A stretch of 50,324 nucleotides of DNA from Spirochaetales bacterium Spiro_04 (lineage in GTDB: Bacteria > Spirochaetota > Spirochaetia > Sphaerochaetales > Sphaerochaetaceae), in the NCBI GenBank assembly GCA_001604325.1, contig LVBF01000037.1, forward strand, positions 1 to 50,324, read 5' to 3'. The translations under genes and the position numbers were made by a program. Shown here in pieces: positions 17,753 to 50,324 of the stretch. Below the pieces are notes generated by a model. It was not told the origin of the DNA. It made no database searches and saw only the letters and a list, made by a program, of their open reading frames with translations. Within the stretch, counting starts at the first letter, position 1; every line of letters begins with the position of its first letter.

Positions 17753-18163
17753 TTACCCAAATCGTACGCTCTCACTCTCGACATGCTCGCTGGAGCCTGC
17801 AAGGCGCAAGGCATACGGCTCTCCGGGCATGAAGAGGACAAACTCCCCCTCCCGAAGCGTCAATACCGTAGTCACCTGCGCTCCTTCGACCACGATCGAG
17901 CCGTCATCAGAGGCCGGCAGGCCCGTGGTCTGTTCAGGGTAGCCGACGGCGATGACCTCCCGCCCCGCCTTGACCCAGTGCAGGCAGAGCTGCTCCTTGT
18001 GGGAGCGCAAGGTCCCGTCGAACGGTCGAGACACCCCACTCTCATCGAATCGATCCATCAGGGGAAGGGCATCTACCTCCCCCGCGATCAAGCGCTCGAT
18101 CTGTGCTGCCGCCTCGATGATCGAAGCGTAGGAAGCGAGCGCATCCACTGAATCGTATATCAT
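17753..18163 (-). CDS. YhcH/YjgK/YiaL (DUF386)-family protein
   Basis: A 136-aa cupin-like protein of the family that includes EbgC and the sialic-acid-associated YhcH. The family core is visible as RSHKEQLCLHWVKAGREVIAVG at about residues 53-74 and FVLFMPGEPYALRL at about 108-121. Members act on or bind sugars, and the specific role here is unknown. The ATG at 18163 is six bases after a TATCCT hexamer and has no Shine-Dalgarno site, so it is a probable leaderless gene. It is divergent from ogt. Confidence 0.72.
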   Translation of the reverse strand: MIYDSVDALASYASIIEAAAQIERLIAGEVDALPLMDRFDESGVSRPFDGTLRSHKEQLCLHWVKAGREVIAVGYPEQTTGLPASDDGSIVVEGAQVTTVLTLREGEFVLFMPGEPYALRLAGSSEHVESESVRFG

Positions 18164-18169
18164 GTGCCT

Positions 18170-18198
18170 AGGATATCGATTTGTCCTCCCTCTTGCAA
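18170..18198 (-). promoter_or_regulatory. Leaderless-type promoter of the YhcH-family gene
   Basis: On the minus strand TTGCAA (18193-18198), a 17-bp spacer, TATCCT (18170-18175), then AGGCAC and ATG. The predicted first transcribed base coincides with the A of the ATG. Confidence 0.65.
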
Positions 18199-18259
18199 GG
18201 AAGTGGTGGTCGCCCCGTACGAAGCGAAGATCTCCTTGAAGATCAAAACTCCATCAATG

Positions 18260-18272
18260 TGACCAAGCGCTC
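18260..18272. repeat. 13-bp direct repeat flanking ogt (copy 1)
   Basis: TGACCAAGCGCTC occurs at 18260-18272, just upstream of the ogt promoter, and again at 18814-18826, 37 bp after the ogt stop. Both copies are on the plus strand and outside coding sequence. They may be protein-binding sites or the scar of a small duplication. Confidence 0.5.
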
Positions 18273-18284
18273 CATCACGGAGCC

Positions 18285-18313
18285 TTGATAACCGGCAAGG
18301 GGCAGACTACGAT
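18285..18313 (+). promoter_or_regulatory. Leaderless-type promoter of ogt
   Basis: TTGATA (18285-18290), a 17-bp spacer, TACGAT (18308-18313), then GGGGT and ATG. No room remains for a normal ribosome-binding site after the predicted transcription start. Confidence 0.65.
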
Positions 18314-18318
18314 GGGGT

Positions 18319-18777
18319 ATGATTTATACCACCGCATATCAGAGCCCCCTCGCCCCGATGATCATCAAAGCCGATGATGAGGCGTTGCTCTCCCTTGCAT
18401 TCGGGAGCACCGAAGAGAAAGACCAGAGCCCGATCCTCGATCAGGTGAAACGGGAGTTGGACGAGTATTGGGATGGGAAGCGAACCGTGTTCTCCGTGCC
18501 GCTCAACGCGGTGGGCACCCCCTTCCAGCAGAAGGTCTGGCAGGCGCTCCTCACCATCGGCTACGGCGAGACGAGAAGCTATGGAGAGATTGCCGCGCAG
18601 ATTGGCAATCCGAAGGCATGCCGTGCCGTCGGGATGGCCAACAACCGCAACCCCATCAGCATCATCATCCCCTGCCACCGGGTCATCGGCAGCGACGGGC
18701 GCCTCGTCGGCTACGGTGGAGGGCTGGACAAGAAGGTGTGGCTGCTCGATTTCGAGGCGACGCACAAACCTCTGTAG
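18319..18777 (+). CDS. ogt: Methylated-DNA--protein-cysteine S-methyltransferase
   Basis: A suicide repair enzyme that transfers the methyl group from O6-methylguanine to its own cysteine. The 152-aa protein has TPFQQKVWQALLTIG (about 67-81), SYGEIAAQIG, the asparagine hinge MANNRNP and the active-site IIPCHRVIG with nucleophile C119. It has the length of the short Ogt form without an Ada regulatory domain. A probable leaderless transcript starts at the ATG. It is flanked by 13-bp direct repeats and followed by a hairpin facing the V-ATPase operon. Confidence 0.95.
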   Translation: MIYTTAYQSPLAPMIIKADDEALLSLAFGSTEEKDQSPILDQVKRELDEYWDGKRTVFSVPLNAVGTPFQQKVWQALLTIGYGETRSYGEIAAQIGNPKACRAVGMANNRNPISIIIPCHRVIGSDGRLVGYGGGLDKKVWLLDFEATHKPL

Positions 18778-18784
18778 ATGACGA

Positions 18785-18806
18785 GACGGACACCGTGGTG
18801 TCCGTC
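18785..18806. terminator. Perfect hairpin between convergent ogt and atpK
   Basis: GACGGACACC-GT-GGTGTCCGTC is a perfect 10-bp inverted repeat in the 68-bp gap between two converging genes. Neither side has a U-tract, so it may act as a bidirectional factor-assisted terminator or a 3'-end protector. Confidence 0.55.
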
Positions 18807-18845
18807 CGTACGATGACCAAGCGCTCAACGAGAGGCGATCATCTC

Positions 18846-19283
18846 TTACTGCAGGGCAAGCAAACTGAAGACCAACGTGAAGAGGGCCACGGTTTCTACG
18901 ATACCGATGACGATGAAGTAGTTTGCCGTCCCCTTCCCGGTCTCCGCGAGCGCGTCACATGCTCTGGCGCTGACCAGGCCCTGCATCCAGGCTGAGAGGC
19001 CGATGGCGAGGCCGCCGAAGACTCCGACGCCGAAGGCGAGTGATGAGGCCACCCCTGCCCCAACGGCGCTTGCGATGAAGTTCATCAACAGGAAGCCGTA
19101 GATCGTCTGTGTCAGCGGAGCGCCCGCGAAGGCGACCATGATGAAGGGGGCTGGCTTACCGTTGGCATAGCACTTCTTCCAACCGCCGACCGCCGCCTGG
19201 GATGCAGCTCCCGCACCCAGTCCTGACCCCAAGGCAGAGAGCGCCAAGGCACAGGCCATTCCGATAAATTCCAAGTTACCCAT
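18846..19283 (-). CDS. atpK: V-type ATPase proteolipid subunit K
   Basis: The rotor-ring proteolipid. The 145-aa protein has four membrane segments (about 4-30, 47-72, 78-104, 120-144), a duplicated hairpin with one acidic site. Compared with Enterococcus hirae NtpK, the sodium ligands are all present: T58, Q59 and Y62 (PLTQTIYGF), Q101 (WMQGLV) and E130 (GIVETVALF). This suggests a sodium-coupled enzyme. The ATG at 19283 has AAGGAG upstream; an in-frame start 27 bp earlier does not. It is the last gene of the operon. Confidence 0.95.
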   Translation of the reverse strand: MGNLEFIGMACALALSALGSGLGAGAASQAAVGGWKKCYANGKPAPFIMVAFAGAPLTQTIYGFLLMNFIASAVGAGVASSLAFGVGVFGGLAIGLSAWMQGLVSARACDALAETGKGTANYFIVIGIVETVALFTLVFSLLALQ

Positions 19284-19313
19284 ATGAATCTCCTTCGTTG
19301 ACGTTGGCAACGA

Positions 19314-21152
19314 TTATTGTTCTTGTGCCGTCTGCGAAAACGGTTTGTATGCGACTCCAGTCCACTCCATGCCGAGTTGTCCGGAGAATTCCAAGAGATT
19401 GAGCCTCACCCCATGGACCACCACACTGAGCAACCCCATGATGAGGTTCAGCGAGTGGCCGATGATCAACACCGCGATTCCCGCGACGATGGCGATACCG
19501 CTGTTCATCGAGCTCGCCATCGCGTTGAACGATTGGGCGATGGCCACACTGGCCATGCCGACCGCGAAGAGGCGGATATAACTCATGATGTTGCTGAAGG
19601 CGCTGATGGTATTGAGGAAGGTGGTGAAGAGCCCCGCCAGTCCCTTCAACATTCCCTTGCCGACGGGCACACCGGGCCCCTGCTCACCGAAGAGCACCAC
19701 CATGACAAAGCCAACCAGCACGATGGAGAAAACCACCGCGAAGTTGATGGGGGTACCGATGACCAGTTGCAACACCACCAGGTAGAGGGCAAGGATGGCC
19801 ACCAGCCAGCCGATGTCCGCCATCAAGCTCAGGTCCTTGTGTGGTGCTTTGCGGAACACGTTCAAGGCGCAGGCTAGCGACAGTTGGACCGTCCCGACGA
19901 TGAAGCAGAACTTCATCACCGTGTTCTGCGCCGTCACCGCGTCGATGCCGAAGAGCTCGGGGTAGTTGGCGATCGAGGGGATGACCAGCGTCTGTAAGAA
20001 CGGAAGATGTTCCAAGATCGCCTTGGAGCCGAACCAGGTGCCGGTCAAGGAGCCCCACACGATCGTGGCGGCTGAGAGCACATAGATGAGCAGGGCCAAG
20101 GTGGTCGGTTTCTTGCTCTTGATGTGGATGGCGGCGGCGGCGATCAGGAAGATCAGGCCGTAGCCGGCGTCGCCCACGATCATGGCGAAGAAGAGGGTGA
20201 AGAAGAGGAGGAACCAGGTGGAGATGTCCGCTTCGTGATACCCGGGCACGGTACCCAGGATATCGAAGACCGGCTTGATGATCCCCACGCCCTTGGGGTA
20301 ACGCACCAAGGTCGGGGGATTGTCGTCCTCGCCCACCTCATTGAGGGCATATGCCCACGCATTGGCCCGGGCGAGCGTTTCGAAGGTCTCTACCTCATCG
20401 ACGGGGAGGTAGCCGGCGATCCAGCTCAGCTCCTCCTCCCGGTCCATTCCCTGGGCAATCTCCTCAAAGACCTGCCGCTCTGAGAGGCGCTTCTGGTACT
20501 CCTTGAGGCTGGTAAGGTAGATGGCGCCGCTTTGAAGCGTGGAGACGGTCGTACCAAGCTCCTCGTTCGCCCTCTTCAACCGCTCTTCGATTTGACCGAG
20601 CCCCACACTGGGGAGGACGAGTTCGGTGGCCATCACCGAAGGGGGAAGCTCGAAGCCGACCGTCGCGATCGCCTCCAGTGAGCCGACCGGCGCCAGATGC
20701 AGGTATGCAATGTCCTCGCCCAAGGCGGCGAGGTCCTTCTTGGAAAGCGTGTAGAAGTGCAGATCGATGCCGCTCTCCCTCAGGGCCACGACCTCACTCG
20801 GATCGAAGTCTCCCCATGGCGCGAGCATTTCAGCTTGGGTGCGGAGGGCGGCGATCTCCTCCTCGAGGCGCTTCTTCTCCTCTGCCAGGTGCGCATAGCG
20901 GTCAGCCACCTCAGCACAGGCTTCCGGGGAGAGCTGCTGTTGTTCACGCTTCTCCTTCTTGCCGTGCAACTCGGTGACCAAGGAGATGACGGCGGAGAGG
21001 GTATCGTACCGCTTCTGGATCTGCTGCGTCTCCTCATTTGTGAAGGGTTCGCTCTCCAGGTGGAGCAGTCCGGCCTTGCCCAAGGCTTTGAGCATGCTCC
21101 GCTTCTTGGCCGTCTCGACGACGATATAGGCTTTCTTCATCTCTACGATCAT
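19314..21152 (-). CDS. atpI: V-type ATPase subunit I
   Basis: The stator and membrane subunit that contacts the rotor ring. The 612-aa protein has a long soluble, coiled-coil-rich N-terminal half (about 1-290, with EEKKRLEEEIAALRTQAEM) and a membrane half from about 305 with roughly seven to eight segments, including MIVGDAGYGLIF and NIMSYIRLFAVGMASVAIA. The conserved arginine of SYIRLFAVG is the likely ion-channel residue. The start lies one base after the atpD stop, with GAAGGGG upstream. Confidence 0.95.
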   Translation of the reverse strand: MIVEMKKAYIVVETAKKRSMLKALGKAGLLHLESEPFTNEETQQIQKRYDTLSAVISLVTELHGKKEKREQQQLSPEACAEVADRYAHLAEEKKRLEEEIAALRTQAEMLAPWGDFDPSEVVALRESGIDLHFYTLSKKDLAALGEDIAYLHLAPVGSLEAIATVGFELPPSVMATELVLPSVGLGQIEERLKRANEELGTTVSTLQSGAIYLTSLKEYQKRLSERQVFEEIAQGMDREEELSWIAGYLPVDEVETFETLARANAWAYALNEVGEDDNPPTLVRYPKGVGIIKPVFDILGTVPGYHEADISTWFLLFFTLFFAMIVGDAGYGLIFLIAAAAIHIKSKKPTTLALLIYVLSAATIVWGSLTGTWFGSKAILEHLPFLQTLVIPSIANYPELFGIDAVTAQNTVMKFCFIVGTVQLSLACALNVFRKAPHKDLSLMADIGWLVAILALYLVVLQLVIGTPINFAVVFSIVLVGFVMVVLFGEQGPGVPVGKGMLKGLAGLFTTFLNTISAFSNIMSYIRLFAVGMASVAIAQSFNAMASSMNSGIAIVAGIAVLIIGHSLNLIMGLLSVVVHGVRLNLLEFSGQLGMEWTGVAYKPFSQTAQEQ

Positions 21153-21153
21153 G

Positions 21154-21765
21154 CTAGGCCCCTTCCACCAATTTTTTCTTGGCGATCTTGCCGCGTACCA
21201 CCGCGGCGGTCTGCTGATCCCCGAGGTAGATGCCGATGACGCGGATGTTCTCCTTCGCCTCAGGTATCTTCACCTTCTCAAAGAGGTTGACCCGCTGGCT
21301 GGTGGTCCTGAGCTCCTTCTCAAGCAAGCGGATCTGTTCGGCGAGCGTGACGATCAGGGCATCGAGGCGGGCATATTCGCGCAGGCTCTCCACACCGCGG
21401 TCGACCCAGAGCGGGTAGTACTCGAGGTCATAGGGGACGGCGGCGAAGGTCAGCTCCTCGAAGACCGGGATGATCACGCCGGCGATGTTGCCCCGGCTCT
21501 TGACGATCGTGTCGATCGTGACCAGGGTCTCTATGGAACGCTCCTCGCTGAAGAACGGGTTCTCCCCGTACACGGCGATCCAGCTCTGCATCTCGGTGAC
21601 CAAGCGGCGCTGGGCCCGCTTGTGCAGCTGGATTTCATCCTGGATCTGACGGATGACCAGCTGCAGTTGCTGCTTCTTCAAGAGCAGCGTCGGCAGGTAC
21701 CGCTCGAACTGCTTGAGGTGGTCCTTCTGAAGTTTTTGCTCGTTCTTGGTAAGCTTGACGGCCAT
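21154..21765 (-). CDS. atpD: V-type ATPase subunit D
   Basis: The central rotor stalk subunit. The 203-aa protein is almost wholly helical, with N-terminal KLTKNEQKLQKDHLKQFERYLPTLL split over two heptad-rich stretches, a middle domain with DLEYYPLWVDRG, and a C-terminal helix containing TSQRVNLFEKVKIPEA, which is the most conserved part of the family. It is 8 bp behind atpB. Confidence 0.93.
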   Translation of the reverse strand: MAVKLTKNEQKLQKDHLKQFERYLPTLLLKKQQLQLVIRQIQDEIQLHKRAQRRLVTEMQSWIAVYGENPFFSEERSIETLVTIDTIVKSRGNIAGVIIPVFEELTFAAVPYDLEYYPLWVDRGVESLREYARLDALIVTLAEQIRLLEKELRTTSQRVNLFEKVKIPEAKENIRVIGIYLGDQQTAAVVRGKIAKKKLVEGA

Positions 21766-21773
21766 GGACGCTC

Positions 21774-23075
21774 CTACTCGATCGCCTTCGGCCAGCGGGC
21801 GCGAATCAAATCGGTCCGCAGGCCTGTCTCGGCGGGTTCAAAGCAGTCGGCGAGAATCTCCCAACCAAGGTCCAGGGCATCCTCGAGCGGGATATTGACC
21901 GACAGGTCCATCATCTTGCGCTCGAAGAGATCGCCATACTTGAGCAGTTTTTCATCCCACTCGGTCATCATGAAGCCCATCGAGCGCTTCTCAAGCGACT
22001 CCTTGAAGGCTGCATACAGCTTGATCATGCCGTCCATCAGGGCACGGTGGTCATCCCGGGTGTGGGCGTTGACCTGCTGCTTGAGGCGGCTCAGCGATCC
22101 AAACGGCTCGATGCGTCCCCCCTTGAGGTAGTACTGCCCCTCGGTGATGTAGCCGGTGTTGTCCGGCACCGGGTGGGTGACGTCGTCCCCGGGCATCGTG
22201 GTGACCCCGAGGATCGTCACCGATCCGGCACCCTCGAAGTCGACGGCCTTCTCGTAGCGGGAGGCCAGTGAGCTGTAGAGGTCACCGGGGTATCCACGGT
22301 TGGAGGGGACCTGGTCCATCGTGATGGCCATCTCCTTCATCGCATCGGCGAAGTTCGTCATATCGGTGAGCAGGACCAGCACCTTCTTGCCGTCGAGGGC
22401 GAAGCGCTCGGCCACGGCCAGCGCCATGTCCGGCACCAGCATGCACTCGACCGTCGGGTCGCTGGCGGTATGGATGAACATGATGGTGCGGCTCATCGCG
22501 CCGCTCTCCTCAAGCGTATCGCGGAAGTAGAGGTAGTCGTCGTACTTGAGCCCCATGCCGCCGAGGACGATCAGGTCGACCTCCGCCTGGATGGCGATAC
22601 GGGCCAACAGCTCGTTGTACGGCTCGCCGCTGACGCTGAAGATTGGCAGCTTCTGGCTCTCGACCAGCGTGTTGAAGAGGTCGATCATCGGCAAGCCGGT
22701 GCGGATCATGTTGCGCGGGATGATGCGTTTGGCGGGGTTTACCGCCGGTGTCCCGATCTCGATGAGGTTCCCCTTCATCTCCGGTCCGCGGTCACGCGGC
22801 ATGCCGGTACCGTCGAAGACGCGCCCGAGCAGATCGTTGGAGTAACTGACCCGCATCGGCACGCCCAAGAAGCGCACCTGATCCCCGGTGGAGATGCCCT
22901 GCGCCCCGCTGAAGACCTGCAGGCTCACCAGATCGTCATCGAGCTTGATGACGTTGGCCATGCTCTGCCCCCCCTTGTAGGAGACGAGTCCCAGCTCCCC
23001 GTTCTTCACCCCGTTGGCCCGCACGGTGATGACGTTGCCGACAATGGATTCAATCTTTGAGTATATCTTCTGCAT
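21774..23075 (-). CDS. atpB: V-type ATPase subunit B
   Basis: The non-catalytic nucleotide-binding subunit of the A3B3 head. The 433-aa protein has the beta-barrel domain (1-70), [19 protein letters not shown] and [16 protein letters not shown] where a catalytic subunit would have the P-loop, and [19 protein letters not shown] carrying the conserved arginine. It lacks a canonical Walker A, as expected for B. It is 3 bp behind atpA. Confidence 0.97.
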
Positions 23076-23078
23076 GCC

Positions 23079-24815: not shown

Positions 24816-24826
24816 GCACAACTCCA

Positions 24827-25360
24827 CTATCGTCTTGCAATCTCACGCTGAAGGTGAGAAAACAGTCGTTCGAACTCACTGTTGCCCGCACTCTGGACAA
24901 ATCGGCTCCTGCGCTCCAACAGCTGTAATTTCAGGACAAATGCCAACAATGCCTCGATGCTGAAGGCGGCAAGCCCCGCCGCCTCATCCAGCTGCTTGAA
25001 GGAGAGCTCCAAGAGCATCAGCTCAGCCTTGAGCGGATCATCGGTAGCCAATGCCTGGCGCACCGTATCGCAGATGCGCAGGTCAGTCTCATCACGGTGG
25101 GGATACGGAGAGCCCACGTACCCTTTGCGCCGGCTGCGCTGGGCTGCCAGCTCCGAGCGCAACAAGCGCTCAAAGCGCTGCCACTTGCGGATGAAGGGGT
25201 GAGCACTCTCCCTCCCCTCCACCGCCGCCACCAGCAACGCATGGTCACGCCGGCTCAGTTGCCCTGCCGAGGCAGAGAGAAACGCTTCGACGCTGAACGG
25301 AAGCGGAGAATCGAGGCGCAAGAGGGGGAGCGTTGAGGCGTAGTAGTAATAGGAAGCCAC
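24827..25360 (-). CDS. DUF2764 protein of the V-ATPase operon (possible subunit C counterpart)
   Basis: A 177-aa helical soluble protein starting MASYYYYASTLPLL and matching what I recall of the DUF2764 family, found between subunits E and A in spirochaetal and related bacterial V-ATPase operons. The motif YASTLPLLRLDSPLPFSVE is characteristic. Because no separate subunit C is encoded here, it may fill the role of the collar connecting stator and rotor. That role is an inference from position only. Confidence 0.75.
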   Translation of the reverse strand: MASYYYYASTLPLLRLDSPLPFSVEAFLSASAGQLSRRDHALLVAAVEGRESAHPFIRKWQRFERLLRSELAAQRSRRKGYVGSPYPHRDETDLRICDTVRQALATDDPLKAELMLLELSFKQLDEAAGLAAFSIEALLAFVLKLQLLERRSRFVQSAGNSEFERLFSHLQREIARR

Positions 25361-25370
25361 CGCAGACTCC

Positions 25371-25964: not shown

Positions 25965-26045
25965 CTGAATCCTACCTCGACGCGTGATTGTACGTGCCCG
26001 GCAAGCCGCTGCGCATGCAACGATCCTGCACCCTTGGGGACAAAC

Positions 26046-26075
26046 TTGGCATATTATCGTTGATAGAAGAATAAT
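26046..26075 (+). promoter_or_regulatory. Possible promoter of the 26166 gene, interleaved with the V-ATPase promoter
   Basis: TTGGCA (26046-26051) and AATAAT (26070-26075) are spaced by 18 bp on the plus strand. They occupy the same 36 bp as the minus-strand V-ATPase promoter, so the two could not be bound by polymerase at once. Confidence 0.45.
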
Positions 26076-26081
26076 ATTCAA
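26053..26081 (-). promoter_or_regulatory. Promoter of the V-ATPase operon
   Basis: On the minus strand TTGAAT (26076-26081), a 17-bp spacer and GATAAT (26053-26058) lie in a strikingly A+T-rich patch. The predicted leader of about 80 nt contains a GCATGC palindrome. The promoter interleaves with a plus-strand promoter for the next gene. Confidence 0.65.
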
Positions 26082-26165
26082 CCAGTGTAGATGATATTCA
26101 CCGCCGCCCCACGTGGCGCTGAAGCAAAAGAACCTCCCCGCCACCTATACGGGCAGGAGGTGACG

Positions 26166-27311: not shown

Positions 27312-27329
27312 TGATCAGCTCCTGTCCCT

Positions 27330-27358: not shown

Positions 27359-27369
27359 GCGCCCATCGC

Positions 27370-30691: not shown

Positions 30692-30720
30692 ACTGTAATG
30701 GGAAAGTGCCCCCTTGACAA
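30692..30720 (-). promoter_or_regulatory. Promoter of rsgA
   Basis: On the minus strand TTGTCA (30715-30720), a 17-bp spacer and TACAGT (30692-30697). Its -35 box shares five bases with the -35 box of the divergent pentapeptide gene. Confidence 0.6.
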
Positions 30721-30741
30721 CCGAGACCCATCTGCTACCCT
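30714..30741 (+). promoter_or_regulatory. Leaderless-type promoter of the pentapeptide gene
   Basis: A consensus TTGACA (30714-30719), a 16-bp spacer, TACCCT (30736-30741), then TGGGT and ATG. The -35 box overlaps that of rsgA on the other strand. Confidence 0.62.
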
Positions 30742-30746
30742 TGGGT

Positions 30747-31325
30747 ATGTTTTCGCTCAAAACCTGCAGCGTCGACGGGTGCCACCACTACATCTGCGCC
30801 GGTGAGGAGACGTGCTACCACCACAGCCGCGACCAGGAAACGATCCTCGCCCAGGCCCAAAGCCTGCTTGCCGGCAGCAGCGATCTCTTCGACCTCTCGG
30901 TCAGCGAGGCGCACTTCTCTCACCTCACCCTCCTCCCCCGGCGGATGGCGGGCAACAACCTGGCGTGGTGCACCTTCACCGACGTCGACTTCAGCTCGCT
31001 GGCGATGACCAACTGCTTCTTCGACTTCTGTCTCTTCGAACGCTGCCGCTTCAATGCGGTGGACGTGCGCCACACGGTCTTCGCCGGCAGCCGCTTCCTC
31101 TCCTGCGACCTCTCCAACTCGCGCTTCATCCACACCAACTTCAGCGGCATCGCCGCCTTCACCACCAACTTCAGCGAGTGTGACTTCTACTACTCCACCT
31201 TCAACACGGCGTTTTTGACCGACTCGCCCTTCGAGGATTGCAACCTGAAGAAGACCGACTTTCGCCATAGTTTGAGAAAGAACATCTCATTTCGGTACTC
31301 CAACCTGGAGGAGGCGCACCGATGA
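30747..31325 (+). CDS. Pentapeptide-repeat protein with Cys/His-rich N-terminus
   Basis: The 192-aa protein has two parts. Residues 7-26 hold C7, C12, H13, H14, C17, C23, H25 and H26, a plausible small zinc site. From about residue 55 to 185 it runs in pentapeptide repeats of A(D/N)LxX type, with phenylalanines at the centre (for example CTFTDVDFSS, CFFDFCLFER, SRFIHTNFSG), which should form a right-handed quadrilateral beta-helix. Function is unknown. I rejected the TTG 33 bp upstream because it is the -35 box. The start is probably leaderless. It overlaps the next gene by 4 bp. Confidence 0.75.
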   Translation: MFSLKTCSVDGCHHYICAGEETCYHHSRDQETILAQAQSLLAGSSDLFDLSVSEAHFSHLTLLPRRMAGNNLAWCTFTDVDFSSLAMTNCFFDFCLFERCRFNAVDVRHTVFAGSRFLSCDLSNSRFIHTNFSGIAAFTTNFSECDFYYSTFNTAFLTDSPFEDCNLKKTDFRHSLRKNISFRYSNLEEAHR

Positions 31326-42978: not shown

Positions 42979-43424
42979 CGAATGCTCTCCATCGCCGCTT
43001 TGACCAGGAGATCGCAGCGTTCATTGCCCTCGATGCCGGCGTGTCCCTTGACCCAATGCCAGTTCACGGGAAGCGAAGAGGCCAACGCGTCGAGGGCGAG
43101 CCAGTACTCCTTGTTCTTCACCGGGTCCTTGGCGGCCGTCCTCCAGCCATTGGCCTTCCATTTGTGGATCCAGCTGGTGATGCCGTTCTTCACGTACTGG
43201 CTGTCCGTGTAGAGGTCGATCCGCACTGAACCGAGCTCTTGTGCGGCCTTCAGCGCCTCGATGACGGCGGTGAGCTCCATGCGGTTGTTGGTCGTGTCGT
43301 GCTCACTACCGCTGGACTCCTTGGAAAACACCCCATCGGCGGAGAGGACATACGCCCATCCGCCGGGGCCTGGATTGCCGAGGCACCCCCCGTCGGTATA
43401 GATGGTGATCGCTTGGTAAGACAT
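42975..43424 (-). CDS. rnhA: Ribonuclease HI
   Basis: It removes RNA from RNA-DNA hybrids. The 149-aa protein has the complete active site D11, E50, D74 and D138, with H128, in IYTDGGCLGNPGPGG, NRMELTAVIEAL, YTDSQYV and WVKGHAGIEGNERCD. I chose the ATG at 43424, which gives the normal family start; the open frame runs 267 bp further but crosses both promoters and the riboswitch. TACTAT lies six bases before the ATG, so the transcript is probably leaderless. Confidence 0.96.
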   Translation of the reverse strand: MSYQAITIYTDGGCLGNPGPGGWAYVLSADGVFSKESSGSEHDTTNNRMELTAVIEALKAAQELGSVRIDLYTDSQYVKNGITSWIHKWKANGWRTAAKDPVKNKEYWLALDALASSLPVNWHWVKGHAGIEGNERCDLLVKAAMESIR

Positions 43425-43430
43425 GGCCCG

Positions 43431-43459
43431 ATAGTACCCAAACTTGGCTCCTCTTGCAA
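43431..43459 (-). promoter_or_regulatory. Leaderless-type promoter of rnhA
   Basis: On the minus strand TTGCAA (43454-43459), a 17-bp spacer, TACTAT (43431-43436), then CGGGCC and ATG. It is back to back with the riboswitch promoter, 12 bp between the two -35 boxes. Confidence 0.68.
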
Positions 43460-43471
43460 CCTCATCGTACC

Positions 43472-43500
43472 TTGACAGAGAGGGTCCCCCTCCGTACGAT
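43472..43500 (+). promoter_or_regulatory. Promoter of the cobalamin riboswitch and transporter operon
   Basis: Consensus TTGACA (43472-43477), a 17-bp spacer and TACGAT (43495-43500). The predicted start, near 43507, coincides with the first base of riboswitch helix P1 at 43508, which supports both calls. Confidence 0.75.
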
Positions 43501-43507
43501 TGGAGTG

Positions 43508-43640
43508 TCCATGCCAAGGGAAAGGGGTACAAGCCCCTGCGGTCCCGCCACTGTAGAGGCTGGGAGACTGCATCATGACACTGCCATGCGCGGGAAGTCG
43601 CAGTCTCTGGGTATGCCTGAGCCAGGAGACCTGCCATGGA
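43508..43640 (+). promoter_or_regulatory. Cobalamin riboswitch (translation-controlling type)
   Basis: Contains the B12 box AGCCAGGAGACCTGCC at 43620-43635, the core AAGGGAA and GGTACAAGCCCCTGCGGTCC, CCGCCACTGT, and closing helix TCCATG (43508-43513) with CATGGA (43635-43640). Downstream, GCCC-N5/6-GGGC (about 43686-43700) can enclose the ribosome-binding AAAAGGGG of the next gene, and CTCCGT...ACGGAG forms another hairpin. No terminator U-tract is seen, so control is probably by hiding the ribosome site when cobalamin binds. Confidence 0.93.
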
Positions 43641-43702
43641 TAATCTCCGTTCGGTCCACGGAGTATGGGCCGGGGTATGATTCATGCCCAAAAAGGGGCG
43701 TT

Positions 43703-44569
43703 ATGCACAATTCCACCCTCTCTCGTCTGTTTCGTGTCGTGGTACTGCTCCTGCTGGTGCCGACGCTGCTCTTCTCGATGGCCACCATCGAACGCCACCC
43801 GGAAAGCGAGCTGCGGATTGTCAGTCTCTCCCCCAACGTCACCGAGACGATCTATGCGTTGGGAAAAGGCGACCTCTTGGTCGGGAGGAGCGACTACTGC
43901 AACTACCCGGAGGAGGCCCTCGCCCTCCCCTCGGTCGGCACCCTCTATTCCCCTTCGCTTGAGAAGCTCCTCTCCCTCGAGCCGACCTTGGCCATCTCAA
44001 GCGCCTTCATCAGCGACCAGATGCTCGCTTCGATCGAGCAGGCCGGCGTCGACGTGCTCCAGATCGACACCCAAGAGAGCTTTGCCGGCACCTGCGACCT
44101 GATCCGCTTGATCGGAGAGGCGGTGGATGCCGAGGACCAGGCGGAGCTGCTGATCCTCTCGATGCAGAACACGGTGCGCGAGGTCCAACTGAAGGCGCAA
44201 GATGGGCCCAAACCGACCGTCTACATGGCCTTTGACTTCGGCTCCTTCGACTCAGCCGCCACGGCGGACACCTTCCTCAGTGAGATGATCGCGCTCGCCG
44301 GCGGAGACAACGTCGCCGATGACGCCCTGTATTGGACCTACTCCAAGGAGATGTTGCTCTTCCACGACCCCGAGGTCATCCTCCTCTCCCCCCGCTGGGG
44401 GGATCCCGGTGAGGCCACCCTCAAGGAGTTTTCCACCACCAAACCGTACAGCGACCTGCATGGGGTGGTGAGGACCTTCGACGCGGACATCATCAGCCGG
44501 CAAGGTCCCCGCAGCGCCCTCGCCCTGGAGATGCTCTACGACTTGATCCACCAGGAGAGCGGGAAATGA
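43703..44569 (+). CDS. Cobalamin ABC transporter substrate-binding protein (BtuF-like)
   Basis: A 288-aa periplasmic binding protein of the helical-backbone (BtuF/FhuD) class. A signal peptide (about 1-26) is followed by RIVSLSPNVTETIYALGKGDLLVG, the typical first lobe (about residues 37-60), YCNYPEEALALPSVG and, in the second lobe, VILLSPRWGDPGEA. Cobalamin or a corrinoid as substrate is inferred from the riboswitch. AAAAGGGG precedes the ATG and is part of the riboswitch switch region. It overlaps the permease gene by 4 bp. Confidence 0.9.
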   Translation: MHNSTLSRLFRVVVLLLLVPTLLFSMATIERHPESELRIVSLSPNVTETIYALGKGDLLVGRSDYCNYPEEALALPSVGTLYSPSLEKLLSLEPTLAISSAFISDQMLASIEQAGVDVLQIDTQESFAGTCDLIRLIGEAVDAEDQAELLILSMQNTVREVQLKAQDGPKPTVYMAFDFGSFDSAATADTFLSEMIALAGGDNVADDALYWTYSKEMLLFHDPEVILLSPRWGDPGEATLKEFSTTKPYSDLHGVVRTFDADIISRQGPRSALALEMLYDLIHQESGK

Positions 44570-45546
44570 AGAAGCCCCTCGTGGCGATCTTGATCGCCGC
44601 GAGCCTGCTTTTGGCTCTCGTCGCCCTGACCCTCGGCCCCTCAGGCATCACCGTCGGCGAGACGGTGCACATCCTGTTGGGACAGGGCAGCACGGCGAAC
44701 AAGCACTACATCATCTGGCGCCTCCGCCTACCCAGGATCATCGCCTCCTTCCTCACCGGTGCGATCCTGGGCTTCAGCGGGGCGATCTTCCAAGCGGCGT
44801 TGCGCAACCCGATGGCCGACCCCTTCATCCTCGGCGTCAGCAGCGGCGCCTCCTTCGGGGTCGCGGTCGCCCTGGCCGTCGGCCTCGGCGCGCTGGTCGG
44901 CTTTCCGATCGCCGCCCTCACCGGCTCGGTGATCACCACCCTCGTCATCCTCGCCCTCTCCGTTCGCCAGAAGGGGGCGACGACGACGCTGATCTTGACC
45001 GGGGTGGCCATCAACTACATCCTCAGCGCCGCCATGACGCTGCTGATGTTCATGAACAAGGAGCAGTACCAACGGATCCTCTACTGGAGCATGGGAAGCT
45101 TCTCCACCGCCACGTGGAGCGAGGTGACGGTCATCGCCCTCACCATGGTGGTGCTGATCATCCCCCTCTCCGCCTCCCACCGCAGCCTCGACATGCTGCT
45201 CCTCGATGAGTCCAGCGGCAGGGCCGCGGGCCTTTCGGTAGGGAGTGTCCGTCTGATGGTGCTCCTGCCCGCCTCCATCGCGACGGCGGTCTGCGTCTCC
45301 TACTTCGGCGTCATCGGCTTCATCGGCCTGATGGCCCCCCACGTCAGCCGCCTGATCGTCGGGCCGAAACACCAGCGCCTCTTGGCCCCCAGCGCCCTCT
45401 TCGGAGGATTCCTCTTGCTCCTCAGCGACACCCTCGCCCGCCTGCTGCTGCCCAGCGGGGAGCTGCCGGTCGGGGTCATCACCAGCCTGGCCGGCGTCCC
45501 GCTCTTCATCTACCTGCTGCGCCGGGGGCGCTACCGCTATGGATAG
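44566..45546 (+). CDS. Cobalamin ABC transporter permease (BtuC/FecCD type)
   Basis: A 326-aa permease with about ten membrane segments. FecCD-family hallmarks are RLPRIIASFLTGAILGFSGAIFQ (about 50-72), NPMADPFILGVSSGASFG, and GVIGFIGLMAPHVSRLIVG, the loop that contacts the ATPase. It overlaps its neighbours by 4 bp and 8 bp, which indicates strong translational coupling in a btuF-btuC-btuD order. Confidence 0.94.
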   Translation: MKKPLVAILIAASLLLALVALTLGPSGITVGETVHILLGQGSTANKHYIIWRLRLPRIIASFLTGAILGFSGAIFQAALRNPMADPFILGVSSGASFGVAVALAVGLGALVGFPIAALTGSVITTLVILALSVRQKGATTTLILTGVAINYILSAAMTLLMFMNKEQYQRILYWSMGSFSTATWSEVTVIALTMVVLIIPLSASHRSLDMLLLDESSGRAAGLSVGSVRLMVLLPASIATAVCVSYFGVIGFIGLMAPHVSRLIVGPKHQRLLAPSALFGGFLLLLSDTLARLLLPSGELPVGVITSLAGVPLFIYLLRRGRYRYG

Positions 45547-46303
45547 CCTCACCTTCAAGGATGTCAATGGAGGGTGGGGAGAGCCGCTCCTCTTTGAAAA
45601 CCTCAGCCTCTCGGTCCCCCGCGGCAGCTTCACCGCCCTCACCGGCCCCAACGGCAGCGGCAAGTCCACCCTCCTCAAGCTCATCTACAAGGAGATCCGC
45701 CCCACCGAGGGCGCCATCTACCTCAACGGGGGGAACATCGCCTCCATGACGCAGAAGGAGCTTGCCCGAAAGATCGGCTTCGTCGCCCAACATCACCTGC
45801 ATGAATACGCCTTCACCGCCCGTGAGGTGGTGGCGATGGGACGGTACGCCCACCCACGGGGTGAGGATGATGCGGTGATCGACGCGGCGATGGAGGCGTG
45901 CGACATCACCCACCTCGCCGACACGCTCATCACGACCTTGAGCGGCGGGGAGCAGCAGCGCGTGATCCTCGCCCGTGCCCTGGCCCAACAGGGACGACTC
46001 CTCTTGCTCGACGAGCCGGTCAACCACCTCGATGTCAAGCACCAACAGGCCATCATGGAGCTGCTCAGGCGCCTCTCACACCAAGGCTACACGATCATCT
46101 GCGTCCTGCATGACCTCCTTTTGGCCCAGATCTACAGCGACCGGACCATCATGCTCAAGGACGGCGTGATCGTGGCCCACGACCGCAGTGATGCGGTCTT
46201 CACCAAAGAGCGGCTCGCTGAGGTCTACCAGATCGAGGCACACCAGGTCTTCGACCCGGTCCTCGGGCGCTCAATCTGGCTCGCCAGCCATCGCGGCGCA
46301 TAA
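45539..46303 (+). CDS. Cobalamin ABC transporter ATP-binding protein (BtuD/FepC type)
   Basis: A 254-aa ABC ATPase with Walker A GPNGSGKST (about 36-44), Q-loop GFVAQHHLHEY, signature LSGGEQQRVILARAL (about 138-152), Walker B LLLLDEPVNHLD and H-loop histidine in VLHDLLLA. It completes the importer downstream of the riboswitch. The gene ends 80 bp before the next start, with a promoter in between. Confidence 0.95.
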   Translation: MDSLTFKDVNGGWGEPLLFENLSLSVPRGSFTALTGPNGSGKSTLLKLIYKEIRPTEGAIYLNGGNIASMTQKELARKIGFVAQHHLHEYAFTAREVVAMGRYAHPRGEDDAVIDAAMEACDITHLADTLITTLSGGEQQRVILARALAQQGRLLLLDEPVNHLDVKHQQAIMELLRRLSHQGYTIICVLHDLLLAQIYSDRTIMLKDGVIVAHDRSDAVFTKERLAEVYQIEAHQVFDPVLGRSIWLASHRGA

Positions 46304-46330
46304 TTTGCCTCCCCCCCGTCCTGTTTTCGC

Positions 46331-46359
46331 TTTCCATCAGCGGACAAAGCCCCTATACT
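46331..46359 (+). promoter_or_regulatory. Promoter of the Gfo/Idh/MocA gene
   Basis: TTTCCA (46331-46336), a 17-bp spacer and TATACT (46354-46359). An ATG at 46366 lies six bases after the -10 box and opens a seven-codon frame that ends over the start of the main gene. Confidence 0.6.
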
Positions 46360-46365
46360 ACCCAT

Positions 46366-46386
46366 ATGAGAGGAGGGGCACCATGA
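46366..46386 (+). CDS. Possible leaderless mini-ORF MRGGAP before the oxidoreductase gene
   Basis: The frame ATG to TGA encodes MRGGAP. Its ATG has the same six-base distance from a -10 hexamer as the leaderless genes of this window, and its stop overlaps the oxidoreductase start as ATGA. Its codons include the GGAGGGG that would serve as ribosome site for the main gene. It may couple translation, but it may also be chance. Confidence 0.3.
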   Translation: MRGGAP

Positions 46387-47351
46387 AGCTTGGAATACTG
46401 GGGGCCGGGAACATCGCCCGCAAGATGGCCTATACCGTAGGGGAGATGGAGCACGTCGAGGCGTACGCCGTCGCCTCGAGGGACCTCGCGAAGGCCCAGG
46501 CCTTCGCCAAGGAGCAGAACGTCAGAAAAGCCTACGGCTCCTACGAGGAGATGGTGAGTGACCCGGAGGTGGACCTCGTCTATGTGGCCACCCCCCACTC
46601 ACACCACTATCAACATATGATGCTCGCCCTTGAGCACAACAAACCGGTGCTCTGTGAGAAGTCGTTCACCACCAACGCCCGCCAAGCCGAGGAGGTCATT
46701 GAGTACGGCCGCTCGAAGGGGCTGCTCGTGGCGGAGGCGATCTGGACACGCTACCTGCCGATGCGTCTGGTCCTCGACCAGGTGATCGAGCGCCGGGTCA
46801 TCGGGGACGTCCAGGCCATCACGGCCAACCTCTGCTACCCGGTCAAGGCGAATGCGCGGGTCCATGACCCCGCCTTGAGCGGTGGCGCCCTGCTCGATGT
46901 GGGCGTCTACCCCATCAACTTCGCCCTGATGGTGCTCGGCAACAAGGTCGAAACGATCGAATCGAGCTGCATCAAGATGGAGAGCGGGGTCGACGAGTCC
47001 AACGTCATCACCTTCACCTACAAGGGAGGGAAGCAGGCGATGCTGCACTCGGCGGTCAACTCGCTGAGCGACCGAAGGGGTATGATCTTCGGCAGCCGCG
47101 GCTACATCGAGTTTCTGAACATCAACAACTGTGAGGGCATCAACGTCTATGACCGCGACTACAACCTCGTGGAGACGTACAAGCCGTTCAAGTTCATCAC
47201 CGGCTTCGAGCATCAGGTAGAGGCGTGCCGCCATGCCCTCGCCGAGGGGGCGATCGAGCTGAAGCAGATGCCGCACAGCGAGATCATCAAGGTCATGCAA
47301 ATCATGGATGAGATCCGCGCCCAGTGGGGTTTGGTCTATCCGGGGGAGTAA
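46383..47351 (+). CDS. Gfo/Idh/MocA-family oxidoreductase
   Basis: A 322-aa NAD(P)-dependent dehydrogenase. A Rossmann domain (about 1-120) with ILGAGNIARKM and YVATPHSHHYQHM is followed by the family signature LCEKSFTTNARQAEE (normally EKP) and an alpha/beta C-terminal domain with SGGALLDVGVYPINFA. The variant EKS retains the catalytic lysine. GGAGGGG precedes the ATG. The substrate, probably a sugar or polyol, cannot be told. It is followed after 3 bp by the UPF0303 gene. Confidence 0.9.
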   Translation: MKLGILGAGNIARKMAYTVGEMEHVEAYAVASRDLAKAQAFAKEQNVRKAYGSYEEMVSDPEVDLVYVATPHSHHYQHMMLALEHNKPVLCEKSFTTNARQAEEVIEYGRSKGLLVAEAIWTRYLPMRLVLDQVIERRVIGDVQAITANLCYPVKANARVHDPALSGGALLDVGVYPINFALMVLGNKVETIESSCIKMESGVDESNVITFTYKGGKQAMLHSAVNSLSDRRGMIFGSRGYIEFLNINNCEGINVYDRDYNLVETYKPFKFITGFEHQVEACRHALAEGAIELKQMPHSEIIKVMQIMDEIRAQWGLVYPGE

Positions 47352-47354
47352 GAT

Positions 47355-47849
47355 ATGGAATTAGAAGAGAGAGTCGCCATCGTCAGCGCCCAAGAGGAGC
47401 TGTTGAAATTCGAGACATTCACCGCCGAGGACGCCTGGGAGCTGGGCAAGGTATTCGTCGCCGAAGCGATGGACCAGGACATCAAGATCGCCATCTCCAT
47501 CCGGTCGATGAGCGGCAAGCGGATGTTCCACTATGCAGCCGAGGGAACGAACCACGGCTCCGACGCGTGGTTGGACCGCAAGTTCAACACGGTACAGCAC
47601 TTTGAATCCAGCACCCTCGCCTACGCACTCTTCCTCAAGCGGCGCGGCGCGACGCTTGAGGAGCGCGGGCTCGACCCCACCCAGTTCGTCGCCTGTGGCG
47701 GCGGCTTCCCCATCTTCGTCTACGGGGTCGGGGTGGTCGCGGCCGTGATGGTCAGCGGCCTGACCGATGTCGCGGACCACGATATCCTCGTCCGCTGCAT
47801 CGCAAAGTACCTGGGCGTGGAGGATGTCCCCCGCTACCCGGTGATCTGA
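47355..47849 (+). CDS. UPF0303/GlcG-HbpS-like protein
   Basis: A 164-aa protein with KIAISIRSMSGKRMFHYA (about 44-61), DAWLDRKFNTVQHFESST (about 71-88) and ACGGGFPIFVYGVGVVAAVMVSGL (about 112-135), matching the UPF0303 (YBR137W-like) family, sometimes labelled heme-degrading because of HbpS similarity. No such activity is shown for most members. GGGGGAG lies before the ATG; cotranscription with the oxidoreductase is likely. Its end overlaps the CYTH gene by 16 bp on the other strand. Confidence 0.8.
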   Translation: MELEERVAIVSAQEELLKFETFTAEDAWELGKVFVAEAMDQDIKIAISIRSMSGKRMFHYAAEGTNHGSDAWLDRKFNTVQHFESSTLAYALFLKRRGATLEERGLDPTQFVACGGGFPIFVYGVGVVAAVMVSGLTDVADHDILVRCIAKYLGVEDVPRYPVI

Positions 47850-48385
47850 GAGAGGAGCAGGAGGTAGGGTTTCCCTTCGATCTGGGAATTTTCAATCTCA
47901 AGCAGGGCGAGCGCTTTTCCAAGCGCTCGCTTCGCGTCTTCGACCTGGGCCCGCTTTTCGAGGACGAACTCCATCTCGATGAACCAGCCGAGGGTGGAGA
48001 CCTCGCAGAGCTCGATGGTCAGATCGCCGAGCCCATCGCCCCAGGCAAGCGAGTAGGAGAGCCCCCGCTTGGTCTTCTTGGCCACGACCTCATATCCAAG
48101 TGAGGTGACGAAGGCGACCGCCCGATCGAACTGGCCCTCATCAGTTTCGAATTCGAACTCCTCGTTGGCCTCGATGTCGCCGTCCATGCGCTTGCGCTTG
48201 CGGGTGAAGAGCACCCTCCCCGCCTCTCGCCGCAGGCGAAAGAGCGCCTGCTGACCCGGCGTGGAGAAGTACCAGTCATCCTTGTCGATGGGGGTAGGCG
48301 CACTGATGAGCGCAAGCGCCTCGATCACGGTCTGCACGCGAAGAGGGTCGTCCACATGTGCCTTCACCTCGACTTCGAAGGCCAT
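47834..48385 (-). CDS. CYTH-domain protein (class IV adenylate cyclase / thiamine triphosphatase-like)
   Basis: A 183-aa triphosphate-tunnel enzyme candidate. The N-terminal EVEVK (residues 4-8) is the ExExK metal-binding signature, and later strands supply the basic and acidic tunnel residues (ALFRLRREAGRVLFTRKRK; NEEFEFETDE; LTIELCEV; IEMEFVLE). The family includes class IV adenylate cyclases, inorganic triphosphatases and thiamine triphosphatases, and sequence alone does not decide. It starts 1 bp after the membrane-protein gene, with AAGGAT upstream. Confidence 0.82.
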   Translation of the reverse strand: MAFEVEVKAHVDDPLRVQTVIEALALISAPTPIDKDDWYFSTPGQQALFRLRREAGRVLFTRKRKRMDGDIEANEEFEFETDEGQFDRAVAFVTSLGYEVVAKKTKRGLSYSLAWGDGLGDLTIELCEVSTLGWFIEMEFVLEKRAQVEDAKRALGKALALLEIENSQIEGKPYLLLLSQITG

Positions 48386-48386
48386 C

Positions 48387-49163
48387 TCAATCCTTCCAGG
48401 GGAAGATCATGCCCTTCAGACTGCGGTGACCGACGCTTTCTCGCTCCTCGTAGAGCAGCTCATCCCAGGGGACGTGCTTTCGGTCTCCCTCTGGGTTCTC
48501 CTCGAGCCAGTCGTACTTGTACATGAGCAGCTTGAGGGCGACGCTCTGGCCGAGGAGCAGGCCACCGACTCCGGGAGCGAGACCGGCCAACACCAGGCTG
48601 ATGACGAAGGTGATGATCTGATGAAAGGCGAAGAAGAGGGAGAAGAAGAGGTTGTCGGCGACGATGACGAAGCTCTTGCGCAGCGTCTTGGTCGGACGGT
48701 CCCCCTGCATGGCGTAGAAGAGCGGCCAGTAGTAGAGCAACGCGAGCGAGAGGGCGATGAAGAGCCAGAAGAGGAGGACGGAGAGGACGGTGCCCACGAT
48801 GGTCCCATAGGCGAGGTAGAAGGGAATGACGAAGAGGATCAGGGCGAAGTCCAGCACGAAGAGCAACCAGTAGAGCAGCGCATGGCGCCAGCTGATCCGG
48901 ATGCCGCGCACAAAGCCGTCCCAACCGGGACGCTCATAGCGCGCCCATGCCCACGTCAGGTGGGCGCTGCCCGCGGTGAAGAAGGCAAAGAGCCCCGCCG
49001 TGAGCACGAGCAACACGACCGGGAGAATCGCGATCTCAGAGAGCAGCGTGAGACTGCCGATGCCGGCCAGGAGGATCAAGAGGAAGCCGAGGTTGAGGAC
49101 AACCATCCCGATGAGGTTGTCCCAACCGTCAAAGAACGCCTTTTTAATGAAGAATCCAATCAT
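48387..49163 (-). CDS. Polytopic membrane protein of unknown function
   Basis: A 258-aa protein with five to six predicted membrane segments (about 18-40, 46-66, 95-118, 120-148, 172-200) and a soluble C-terminal tail ending HRSLKGMIFPWKD. The N-terminal MIGFFIKKAFFDGWDNLIG resembles bacterial DUF624-like or spirochaetal conserved membrane proteins, but I cannot assign a family. The ATG is six bases after TACTCT and has no Shine-Dalgarno site; probably leaderless. It leads a two-gene unit with the CYTH gene. Confidence 0.7.
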   Translation of the reverse strand: MIGFFIKKAFFDGWDNLIGMVVLNLGFLLILLAGIGSLTLLSEIAILPVVLLVLTAGLFAFFTAGSAHLTWAWARYERPGWDGFVRGIRISWRHALLYWLLFVLDFALILFVIPFYLAYGTIVGTVLSVLLFWLFIALSLALLYYWPLFYAMQGDRPTKTLRKSFVIVADNLFFSLFFAFHQIITFVISLVLAGLAPGVGGLLLGQSVALKLLMYKYDWLEENPEGDRKHVPWDELLYEERESVGHRSLKGMIFPWKD

Positions 49164-49169
49164 GAGTGA

Positions 49170-49198
49170 AGAGTACCGAGACTCCCGACCAATTACAA
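49170..49198 (-). promoter_or_regulatory. Leaderless-type promoter of the 49163 membrane gene
   Basis: On the minus strand TTGTAA (49193-49198), a 17-bp spacer, TACTCT (49170-49175), then TCACTC and ATG. It lies in the 42-bp gap behind the aldo/keto reductase stop. Confidence 0.66.
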
Positions 49199-49205
49199 GA
49201 GTTGC

Positions 49206-50045
49206 CTAGAAGAGCGCCTCATCCGGATTGCGCGTCGGACCGACGCTGTTCTCCATTCCATCGAGGAGATGCATCTCCTCCCCCGTCAAGCTGAAGTCGA
49301 AGATCGCGAGGTTCTCCCTGATCGTCTCCTCCCTGATCGACTTGGGCAGGACCACGAACCCCTTCTGCACCAGATAGCGCAGCGAAATCTGGGCCGCGCT
49401 CTTGCCGTGCGCCGCGGCCACGGTGGCGATGGTCTCGTTCTTCAAGAGATTCCCGGTCCCGAGCGGGCTGTACGCCTCCAGCACCATCCCCCGCTTGCGG
49501 CAGTAGGAGACCAAGGCCTCTTGCCGTTCCCCGGCGAAGAGACGGATCTGGTTGACCATCGGGGCGATCTCGGCGCTCTTCATCAGCTCCTCGAGGTGCC
49601 GCTCGGCGAAGTTCGAGACCCCGATGCTCTTGACCACGCCGGCGCGGTAGAACTCCTCGATCGCCCGCCAGGAGCCTGCATTGGCCTCCTGCCAATGGTG
49701 GCGGTGTGCGATGGGGTTCGGCCAGTGGATCAGGTAGAGGTCGATGTAGTCGACCCCCAGGGCCTTCAGGCTCTTCTCGAAACCGGCACGGGTCAAGTCG
49801 TAGCCGTGGTCCTCGTTATGGAGCTTGGTGGTGAGGAAGATCTCGCCTCGCGCGATGCCGCTCTCGGCGATGCCCTCCCCCACGCTCTGCTCGTTGAAGT
49901 ACGCTGCGGCGGTATCGATGTGTCGATACCCCGCCTCCAGGGCCAAGCGTACGCTGTCCCGGGTCACGATGCCGCTGGGGATCTGCCAGGTGCCGAATCC
50001 GATCTGGGGGATTTGCACCCCATTGCTCATGGTGATTTTCTGCAT
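49206..50045 (-). CDS. Aldo/keto reductase
   Basis: A 279-aa NADPH-dependent TIM-barrel reductase of the 2,5-diketo-gluconate reductase type. The catalytic tetrad is complete: D44 and Y49 (RHIDTAAAYFNE), K74 (LTTKLHNED) and H107 (YLIHWPNP). IGVSNFAERHLEEL and ending PTRNPDEALF are also typical. Substrate is not predictable. The ATG at 50045 is chosen over a longer frame; it is six bases after TATGGT, with GGTGG overlapping that box as a possible but very close ribosome site. Confidence 0.93.
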   Translation of the reverse strand: MQKITMSNGVQIPQIGFGTWQIPSGIVTRDSVRLALEAGYRHIDTAAAYFNEQSVGEGIAESGIARGEIFLTTKLHNEDHGYDLTRAGFEKSLKALGVDYIDLYLIHWPNPIAHRHHWQEANAGSWRAIEEFYRAGVVKSIGVSNFAERHLEELMKSAEIAPMVNQIRLFAGERQEALVSYCRKRGMVLEAYSPLGTGNLLKNETIATVAAAHGKSAAQISLRYLVQKGFVVLPKSIREETIRENLAIFDFSLTGEEMHLLDGMENSVGPTRNPDEALF

Positions 50046-50051
50046 ACATCC

Positions 50052-50079
50052 ACCATACCACAAGTCTGGGGAAATGCAA
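50052..50079 (-). promoter_or_regulatory. Leaderless-type promoter of the aldo/keto reductase
   Basis: On the minus strand TTGCAT (50074-50079), a 16-bp spacer, TATGGT (50052-50057), then GGATGT and ATG. Confidence 0.58.
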
Positions 50080-50280
50080 AACAGCGAGAGACAGGATGGA
50101 TGCAATCCGTTTTTCCGTTTGTTCGCCCATCGCTGTTTGTTCCCAAATTCCTTCGGTATTATCCACTGCGACATACGGATGAGAGAAATTGCTCATCTTG
50201 AGACAGTTCTCCAGCAATTGGTTGACTATGGCTGAGTTTGCGATGATTTATGCTCAGATTTGGCGAATTATAGTTTTTTT
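50079..50280. other. Non-coding, A+T-richer intergenic segment with inverted repeats
   Basis: I see no credible gene here. It holds a 9-bp inverted repeat AAACAGCGA (50079-50087) / TCGCTGTTT (50130-50138), and a nested pair AATTGCT (50187-50193) / AGCAATT (50213-50219) with an inner GAGA/TCTC. A run of eight T follows at 50274-50281, but no strong stem directly precedes it. It may contain regulatory sites or a small RNA; neither can be shown. Confidence 0.4.
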
Positions 50281-50283
50281 TGT

Positions 50284-50312
50284 TTGACAACGCCTATTTC
50301 ATCGCCTACCAT
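50284..50312 (+). promoter_or_regulatory. Leaderless-type promoter at the right edge
   Basis: Consensus TTGACA (50284-50289), a 17-bp spacer, TACCAT (50307-50312), then AGAAGC and ATG at 50319. The geometry is identical to that of the other leaderless genes. Confidence 0.65.
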
Positions 50313-50318
50313 AGAAGC

Positions 50319-50324
50319 ATGTTG
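50319..50324 (+). CDS. Predicted start of a gene running out of the window
   Basis: Only ATG TTG (Met-Leu) is visible. The call rests on the promoter placed six bases upstream, as at six other genes in this window. No product can be inferred. Confidence 0.4.

Follow-up and report, generated by a model that had tools for sequence, protein, structure and literature searches.

Putative leaderless genes behind a fixed promoter-to-start distance in a Sphaerochaeta-like spirochaete

In the contig LVBF01000037.1, from the genome bin of Spirochaetales bacterium Spiro_04 (assembly GCA_001604325.1), several genes carry a −10 box of the form TANNNT only 5 or 6 bases before their ATG. Do these genes make mRNAs that begin at the start codon, and how far does the arrangement extend beyond this one piece of DNA? 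The stretch analysed (hereafter the window) is the entire contig of 50,324 nt, and the bin it belongs to holds 1.75 Mb in 227 contigs and is 80.6 per cent complete. Its source is a Sphaerochaeta-like spirochaete (phylum Spirochaetota), as judged by the A subunit of its V-ATPase, which shares 90 per cent identity with its counterpart in an uncultured Spirochaetales bin and 80 per cent with two Sphaerochaeta records. An earlier note on this DNA had read seven sites as a class of leaderless genes. That reading is supported here, with an excess of the spacing at gaps of 5–7 bases, no such excess in clostridial controls, and spacing kept at several orthologues. We conclude that these are very probably leaderless genes. 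The promoter geometry, its excess across the genome and the scarcity of Shine-Dalgarno (SD) matches point this way, as do the favoured use of ATG as start codon, the persistence of the arrangement at some orthologues and its wide occurrence in the class.

The seven sites and their excess in the genome

All seven sites claimed in the window were found, each consisting of TTGNNN-N16/17-TANNNT followed by ATG after 5–6 bases. We define the gap as the number of bases between the end of the −10 box and the ATG; spacers and gaps at these sites were counted by hand.

18161..18198, minus strand: start of the DUF386/YhcH gene; ATG 18163, −10 TATCCT 18170-18175, −35 TTGCAA 18193-18198; spacer 17, gap 6
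18285..18321, plus strand: start of ogt (6-O-methylguanine-DNA methyltransferase); −35 TTGATA 18285-18290, −10 TACGAT 18308-18313, ATG 18319; spacer 17, gap 5
30714..30749, plus strand: start of a pentapeptide-repeat gene; −35 TTGACA 30714-30719, −10 TACCCT 30736-30741, ATG 30747; spacer 16, gap 5
43422..43459, minus strand: start of rnhA (RNase H); ATG 43424, −10 TACTAT 43431-43436, −35 TTGCAA 43454-43459; spacer 17, gap 6
49161..49198, minus strand: start of gene 48387-49163 (258 aa, no Pfam match at 0.001); ATG 49163, −10 TACTCT 49170-49175, −35 TTGTAA 49193-49198; spacer 17, gap 6
50043..50079, minus strand: start of an aldo/keto reductase gene; ATG 50045, −10 TATGGT 50052-50057, −35 TTGCAT 50074-50079; spacer 16, gap 6
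50284..50321, plus strand: candidate start of a gene cut by the contig end (50324); −35 TTGACA 50284-50289, −10 TACCAT 50307-50312, ATG 50319; spacer 17, gap 6

The set of gaps agrees with the earlier description, with the values for 18163 (6) and 30747 (5) swapped there. Six of the seven ATGs (18163, 18319, 30747, 43424, 49163 and 50045) were chosen by a gene caller that is blind to upstream sequence and uses a coding score plus a start-codon weight, with ATG weighted above GTG and TTG. SD sites had been described as absent, or marginal at 50045; five of the six window genes indeed have no match, and 50045 has the four-base GGTG. Among the other first genes in the window, 3/19 lack an SD match of at least four bases. 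Of the genes named earlier as a contrast, rsgA, ispG (start 17688) and the solute-binding protein gene (37194) show matches of 5–6 bases, and the gene that follows the riboswitch (43703) has one of just four bases. As for the organization of these units, four had been thought to hold a single gene; at most three can (18163, 18319 and 50045), because a downstream gene on the same strand overlaps or directly adjoins each of 30747, 43424 and 49163. The claim that all seven genes come first in their units is uncertain for 49163, where a same-strand gene ends 42 bp upstream.

We called a first gene leaderless-like if it has TANNNT at a gap of 5–7 and a −35 box matching at least three of six bases at a spacing of 16–18. 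Since the test demands a −35 box, genes without one would be missed. Each set of first genes was compared with 200 dinucleotide shuffles. In the window, 6/25 first genes are leaderless-like (shuffle mean 0.40, maximum 3). Forty other contigs of the bin were sampled, of which twenty-four were readable (the sixteen contigs below 3 kb read as N), and these gave 16/158 (mean 2.65, maximum 9). The count was 42/356 for a set of spirochaete loci, some of them near copies of one another (mean 10.16, maximum 19), and 20/221 for a 400-kb sample of the cultured Sphaerochaeta halotolerans (mean 6.94, maximum 14). Twenty-four clostridial control loci showed no excess (3/182 against a mean of 4.68, maximum 11).

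The excess also stands out against other gaps. A search of the bin for TTGAC-N17..19-TANNNT-N0..30-ATG gave 98 matches, compared with sixteen when the pattern was reversed. Gaps of 5–7 account for thirty-three of the 98, compared with 6.1 expected from gaps outside 4–8 (Poisson P approximately 3e-14); thirty-one of the thirty-three lie outside the window. The mode is a gap of 6, with twenty-two matches. Five clostridial control genomes, two of which (L097 and L102) are strains of one species, show no excess, with ninety-one matches at gaps 5–7 and eighty-eight at gaps 12–14. The genome-wide excess over shuffles that the earlier note had proposed to look for is thus present, both against shuffles and against other gaps.

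Other properties of the genes agree. Outside the window, an SD match is missing from 15/16 leaderless-like genes compared with 60/142 other first genes (P = 6e-5), and ATG is the start codon in 16/16 compared with 100/142 (P = 0.005). With the window included, 22/22 leaderless-like genes of the bin start with ATG. In S. halotolerans, seventeen of the twenty leaderless-like genes have no SD match and nineteen begin with ATG; in the spirochaete loci both figures are 38/42. In the bin and S. halotolerans combined, 35/42 leaderless-like genes have C or T directly before the ATG, compared with 210/362 other first genes (P = 0.0008), a bias that would follow from transcription beginning on the A of ATG.

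The proposed course of expression is a simple one. RNA polymerase would recognize an ordinary −35/−10 promoter, and with the −10 box ending 5–7 bases before the ATG, transcription would start at the A of AUG or about one base from it. The mRNA would then have neither a leader nor an SD site, and a ribosome carrying initiator tRNA would bind the 5′-terminal AUG, by analogy with leaderless mRNAs elsewhere. The same genome also uses SD leaders. By our test roughly a tenth of the sampled first genes would be leaderless, or about 8 per cent outside the window after subtracting the shuffle mean.

All sixteen leaderless-like genes outside the window encode proteins with a Pfam match: signal peptidase S26, GTP-binding GTPase, YdcZ exporter, DUF188, AMP-binding enzyme, OsmC, EPSP synthase, S41 peptidase, LGT, dicarboxylate symporter, ArsR-type regulator, DsbD transmembrane domain, RsmB/F methyltransferase, MnmE, class II tRNA synthetase domain and Glucosamine_iso. 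No particular functional class stands out among these sixteen. One gene (10733 of L015) was called leaderless-like, perhaps falsely, despite a five-base SD match. Another sampled contig, L016 (G000:C15), has 48.3 per cent G+C, compared with 57–62 per cent in the other readable ones, and may be foreign DNA or misbinned.

Four of these genes form two divergent pairs. In L115 (12150−/12885+) a DsbD-like gene and the RsmB/F methyltransferase gene are both leaderless-like, with ATGs near 12821 and 12885; in L116 (7694−/9090+) the same is true of MnmE and the class II tRNA-synthetase-like gene (ATGs near 9022 and 9090). Just 63 or 67 bp separate the genes of these pairs, and both promoters share one tiny region. 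More broadly, 16/21 leaderless-like genes of the bin stand in divergent pairs compared with 64/144 other first genes, and in S. halotolerans (L213-L232) the figures are 16/18 and 74/188, a difference for which the definition of a first gene may account in part.

Spread through the class and phylum

For a survey of the class we counted TTGAC-N17..18-TANNNT followed by ATG at gaps 5–7 and at gaps 12–14 in a sample of 148 genomes. The totals are 5452 and 2158, with 144 genomes higher at the shorter gaps, three lower and one equal, and 34/40 families reach P < 0.01 (family P values are uncorrected). Our own genome, at 31 to 2, has the top ratio of the 148 apart from one genome at 5 to 0. In family f19, with genomes of 1.0–1.8 Mb, the ratio is weak (108 to 74). 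Five named spirochaete genomes gave 150 matches at gaps 5–7 and sixty-five at gaps 12–14.

Outside the class the totals for 103 genomes are 3826 and 2234, with the shorter gaps higher in ninety-one. Sixteen of thirty-five families reach P < 0.01 there and many show nothing. Because of this patchy signal we confine the claim to the class and do not extend it to the phylum.

Orthologous genes and competing accounts

The earlier note had also asked whether the spacing is kept at orthologous genes. At rnhA it is retained, and so it is in most relatives of the 49163 gene and of ogt, but not in most relatives of the DUF386 and aldo/keto reductase genes. For rnhA, twenty-one of twenty-three same-genus relatives were matched (one is a split match without a locus). 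The promoter is present in all twenty readable same-genus sequences (our own included; twenty-one have a locus), with a gap of 7 in eighteen and 6 in two. At nine rnhA loci of other families, four (L144, L146, L147 and L150) show, by eye, TTGNNN-N17/18-TANNNT-N6/7-ATG, two (L149 and L152) have an SD-like leader, and three are not clear-cut. In the window a cobalamin riboswitch (43495-43652, plus strand) is found in the interval separating rnhA from the divergent gene at 43703, putting a structured leader next to a seemingly leader-free gene that points the other way.

The 49163 gene has TANNNT at gap 6 in 17/20 same-genus relatives with the locus; outside the genus this is true of 1/9. Across fifteen distinct upstream sequences the TTG of the −35 box and the TA and final T of the −10 box are invariant, and the gap is always 6 (15/15). 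Positions −36, −29, −16, −10 and −1 are also invariant, and agreement is 47–67 per cent at gap positions −2 to −6. For ogt, 14/19 same-genus relatives with the locus are leaderless-like; in some of them the ATG is one or two codons off the aligned start and the −35 box matches only three of six bases.

Among twenty sequences of the pentapeptide gene (our own included), the best −35 box lies 34–35 bases before the ATG in seventeen, a spread bounded by the design of the search, which was confined to 27–40 bases before the ATG. TANNNT stands at a gap of 5–6 in twelve and at a gap of 8 in one, and two sequences carry GGAG. Seven relatives (L027, L060, L074, L083, L085, L091 and L099) have TTGACA 34–35 bases before the ATG and no TANNNT (e.g. 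GAGCAT or GAACAT), perhaps reflecting a relaxed −10 box behind a perfect −35 box.

For the aldo/keto reductase we read relatives with a tblastn E below 1e-60 (fourteen of twenty-three in the genus). Our own gene and the two closest relatives are leaderless-like, one with a weak −35 box. The neighbouring gene at 50319 was sought at our own locus and these fourteen through leaderless-like open reading frames (ORFs) of at least sixty codons, and no such gene was found in the two closest relatives. Besides the reductase and the 49163 gene, that scan returned ORFs only in L247, one LacI-like (our label) and one of sixty-nine codons. As a gene start, 50319 is thus no more than a candidate.

The gap of 7 that prevails at rnhA bears on one alternative to leaderless expression, namely that the promoters are real and the leaders very short, with transcription starting 1–4 bases before the AUG. 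The gap of 9 seen in 7/15 relatives of the DUF386 gene would suit such leaders as well. They fit less easily with 6 as the modal gap in the bin, or with the C or T before the ATG, which agrees with a start on that A. We regard very short leaders as rather unlikely; in function such a form is close to a leaderless one.

Another account would have the start codons misplaced, each true one lying downstream behind a leader and the ATG next to the −10 box being untranslated. The offset of one or two codons in some ogt relatives speaks for this, and the caller does favour ATG. The same caller picks these ATGs without seeing the promoters, however, and relatives of the 49163 gene, rnhA and the pentapeptide gene align from residue 1, so that we judge wrong start codons for the six genes to be highly improbable. 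Last, the sites might be a selection of seven good cases of a common pattern, as TANNNT alone is a weak motif and the window is richer in leaderless-like genes than the other sampled contigs, but the probability of this is negligible, since shuffles, reversed patterns, other gaps and clostridial controls rule out chance and base composition, with the excess recurring in independent contigs and genomes.

Several observations weigh against the reading of these genes as leaderless. By chance alone about seven of the twenty leaderless-like genes in S. halotolerans would be expected. In the class survey, 6/40 families miss P = 0.01 and 4/148 genomes have no excess. At the orthologues, the promoter of the 49163 gene is missing in 3/20 same-genus relatives (L200, L202 and L203), TANNNT is absent from the expected place in 7/20 sequences of the pentapeptide gene, and 5/19 ogt relatives are not leaderless-like (in four an ATG lies further upstream, preceded by a purine-rich leader, and the fifth has neither form). 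Nor are 12/14 same-genus reductase relatives leaderless-like, eight having AGGAGG or AAGGAG before the ATG and four no promoter there. Relatives of the DUF386 gene that lie beside ogt, which are only 23–37 per cent identical, have the gap of 6 in just 2/15; apart from those with the gap of 9 (counted by eye), three have GGTGAGGT before the ATG and three something else. Moreover, orthologue counts from related sequences are not independent. From the literature, six species of Spirochaetes are given a negative value on a component tied to bacterial leaderless mRNA (PMC5397173).

From the comparison of these six genes, the leaderless state looks old at some and labile at others. A broader proposal, which we offer tentatively and as little short of an even call, is that leaderless expression in the class is ancient and tied to particular genes. 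In this proposal genes of the rnhA type would have kept it across several families, while ogt and the aldo/keto reductase would have switched with an SD-led form as their neighbourhood changed, and related genomes would thus record the change of initiation mode.

Known leaderless genes and significance

Leaderless genes are already a known kind, and 21.6 per cent of bacterial species have been cited as predicted users (PMC9581028). The closest likeness is to the TANNNT genes of Deinococcus-Thermus, where the motif also closely precedes the start codon of a leaderless mRNA and genes with a GGAG-type ribosome-binding motif share the genome (PMC12340547). That system covers about one-third of D. 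radiodurans genes, the function of the motif was tested experimentally, and the −35 element acts as an enhancer (PMC12340547). Our genes, in contrast, were identified from sequence with a test requiring a −35 box, and by that test they amount to about one in ten first genes.

To the earlier statement that no description was known for this lineage, the phylum Spirochaetota itself offers two exceptions. A 2011 prediction reported a TA-like −10 signal shortly before the start, as here, in 6/18 spirochaete genomes with a mean of 3.9 per cent of genes (PMC3160421); the available passages of that paper leave the genomes unnamed and contain no orthologue comparison. In 2017, primary transcription starts of Leptospira interrogans were mapped, with 430–450 genes having one at most ten bases from the start codon and 170–184 exactly on it (PMC5243855). 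Those starts were measured by differential RNA sequencing (dRNA-seq), and the study found no shared promoter motif besides sigma-54 elements, unlike the plain −35/−10 promoters here. Leaderless transcripts are also called frequent in Borrelia burgdorferi (PMC10618245). Our literature search found no paper pairing leaderless genes with Sphaerochaeta, though the GeneMarkS-2 paper might list that genus. The present analysis adds the Sphaerochaeta-like lineage, the wide distribution within the class and the switching of genes between a leaderless and an SD-led form.

In these genomes, start codons and promoters may be wrongly placed by gene finders that expect SD sites. Certain antibiotics are described as blocking initiation on leadered and not on leaderless transcripts (PMC9581028). 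The signal is present in cultured S. halotolerans, and the same gene occurs in both forms among related genomes; a change of initiation mode is therefore directly testable in this group.

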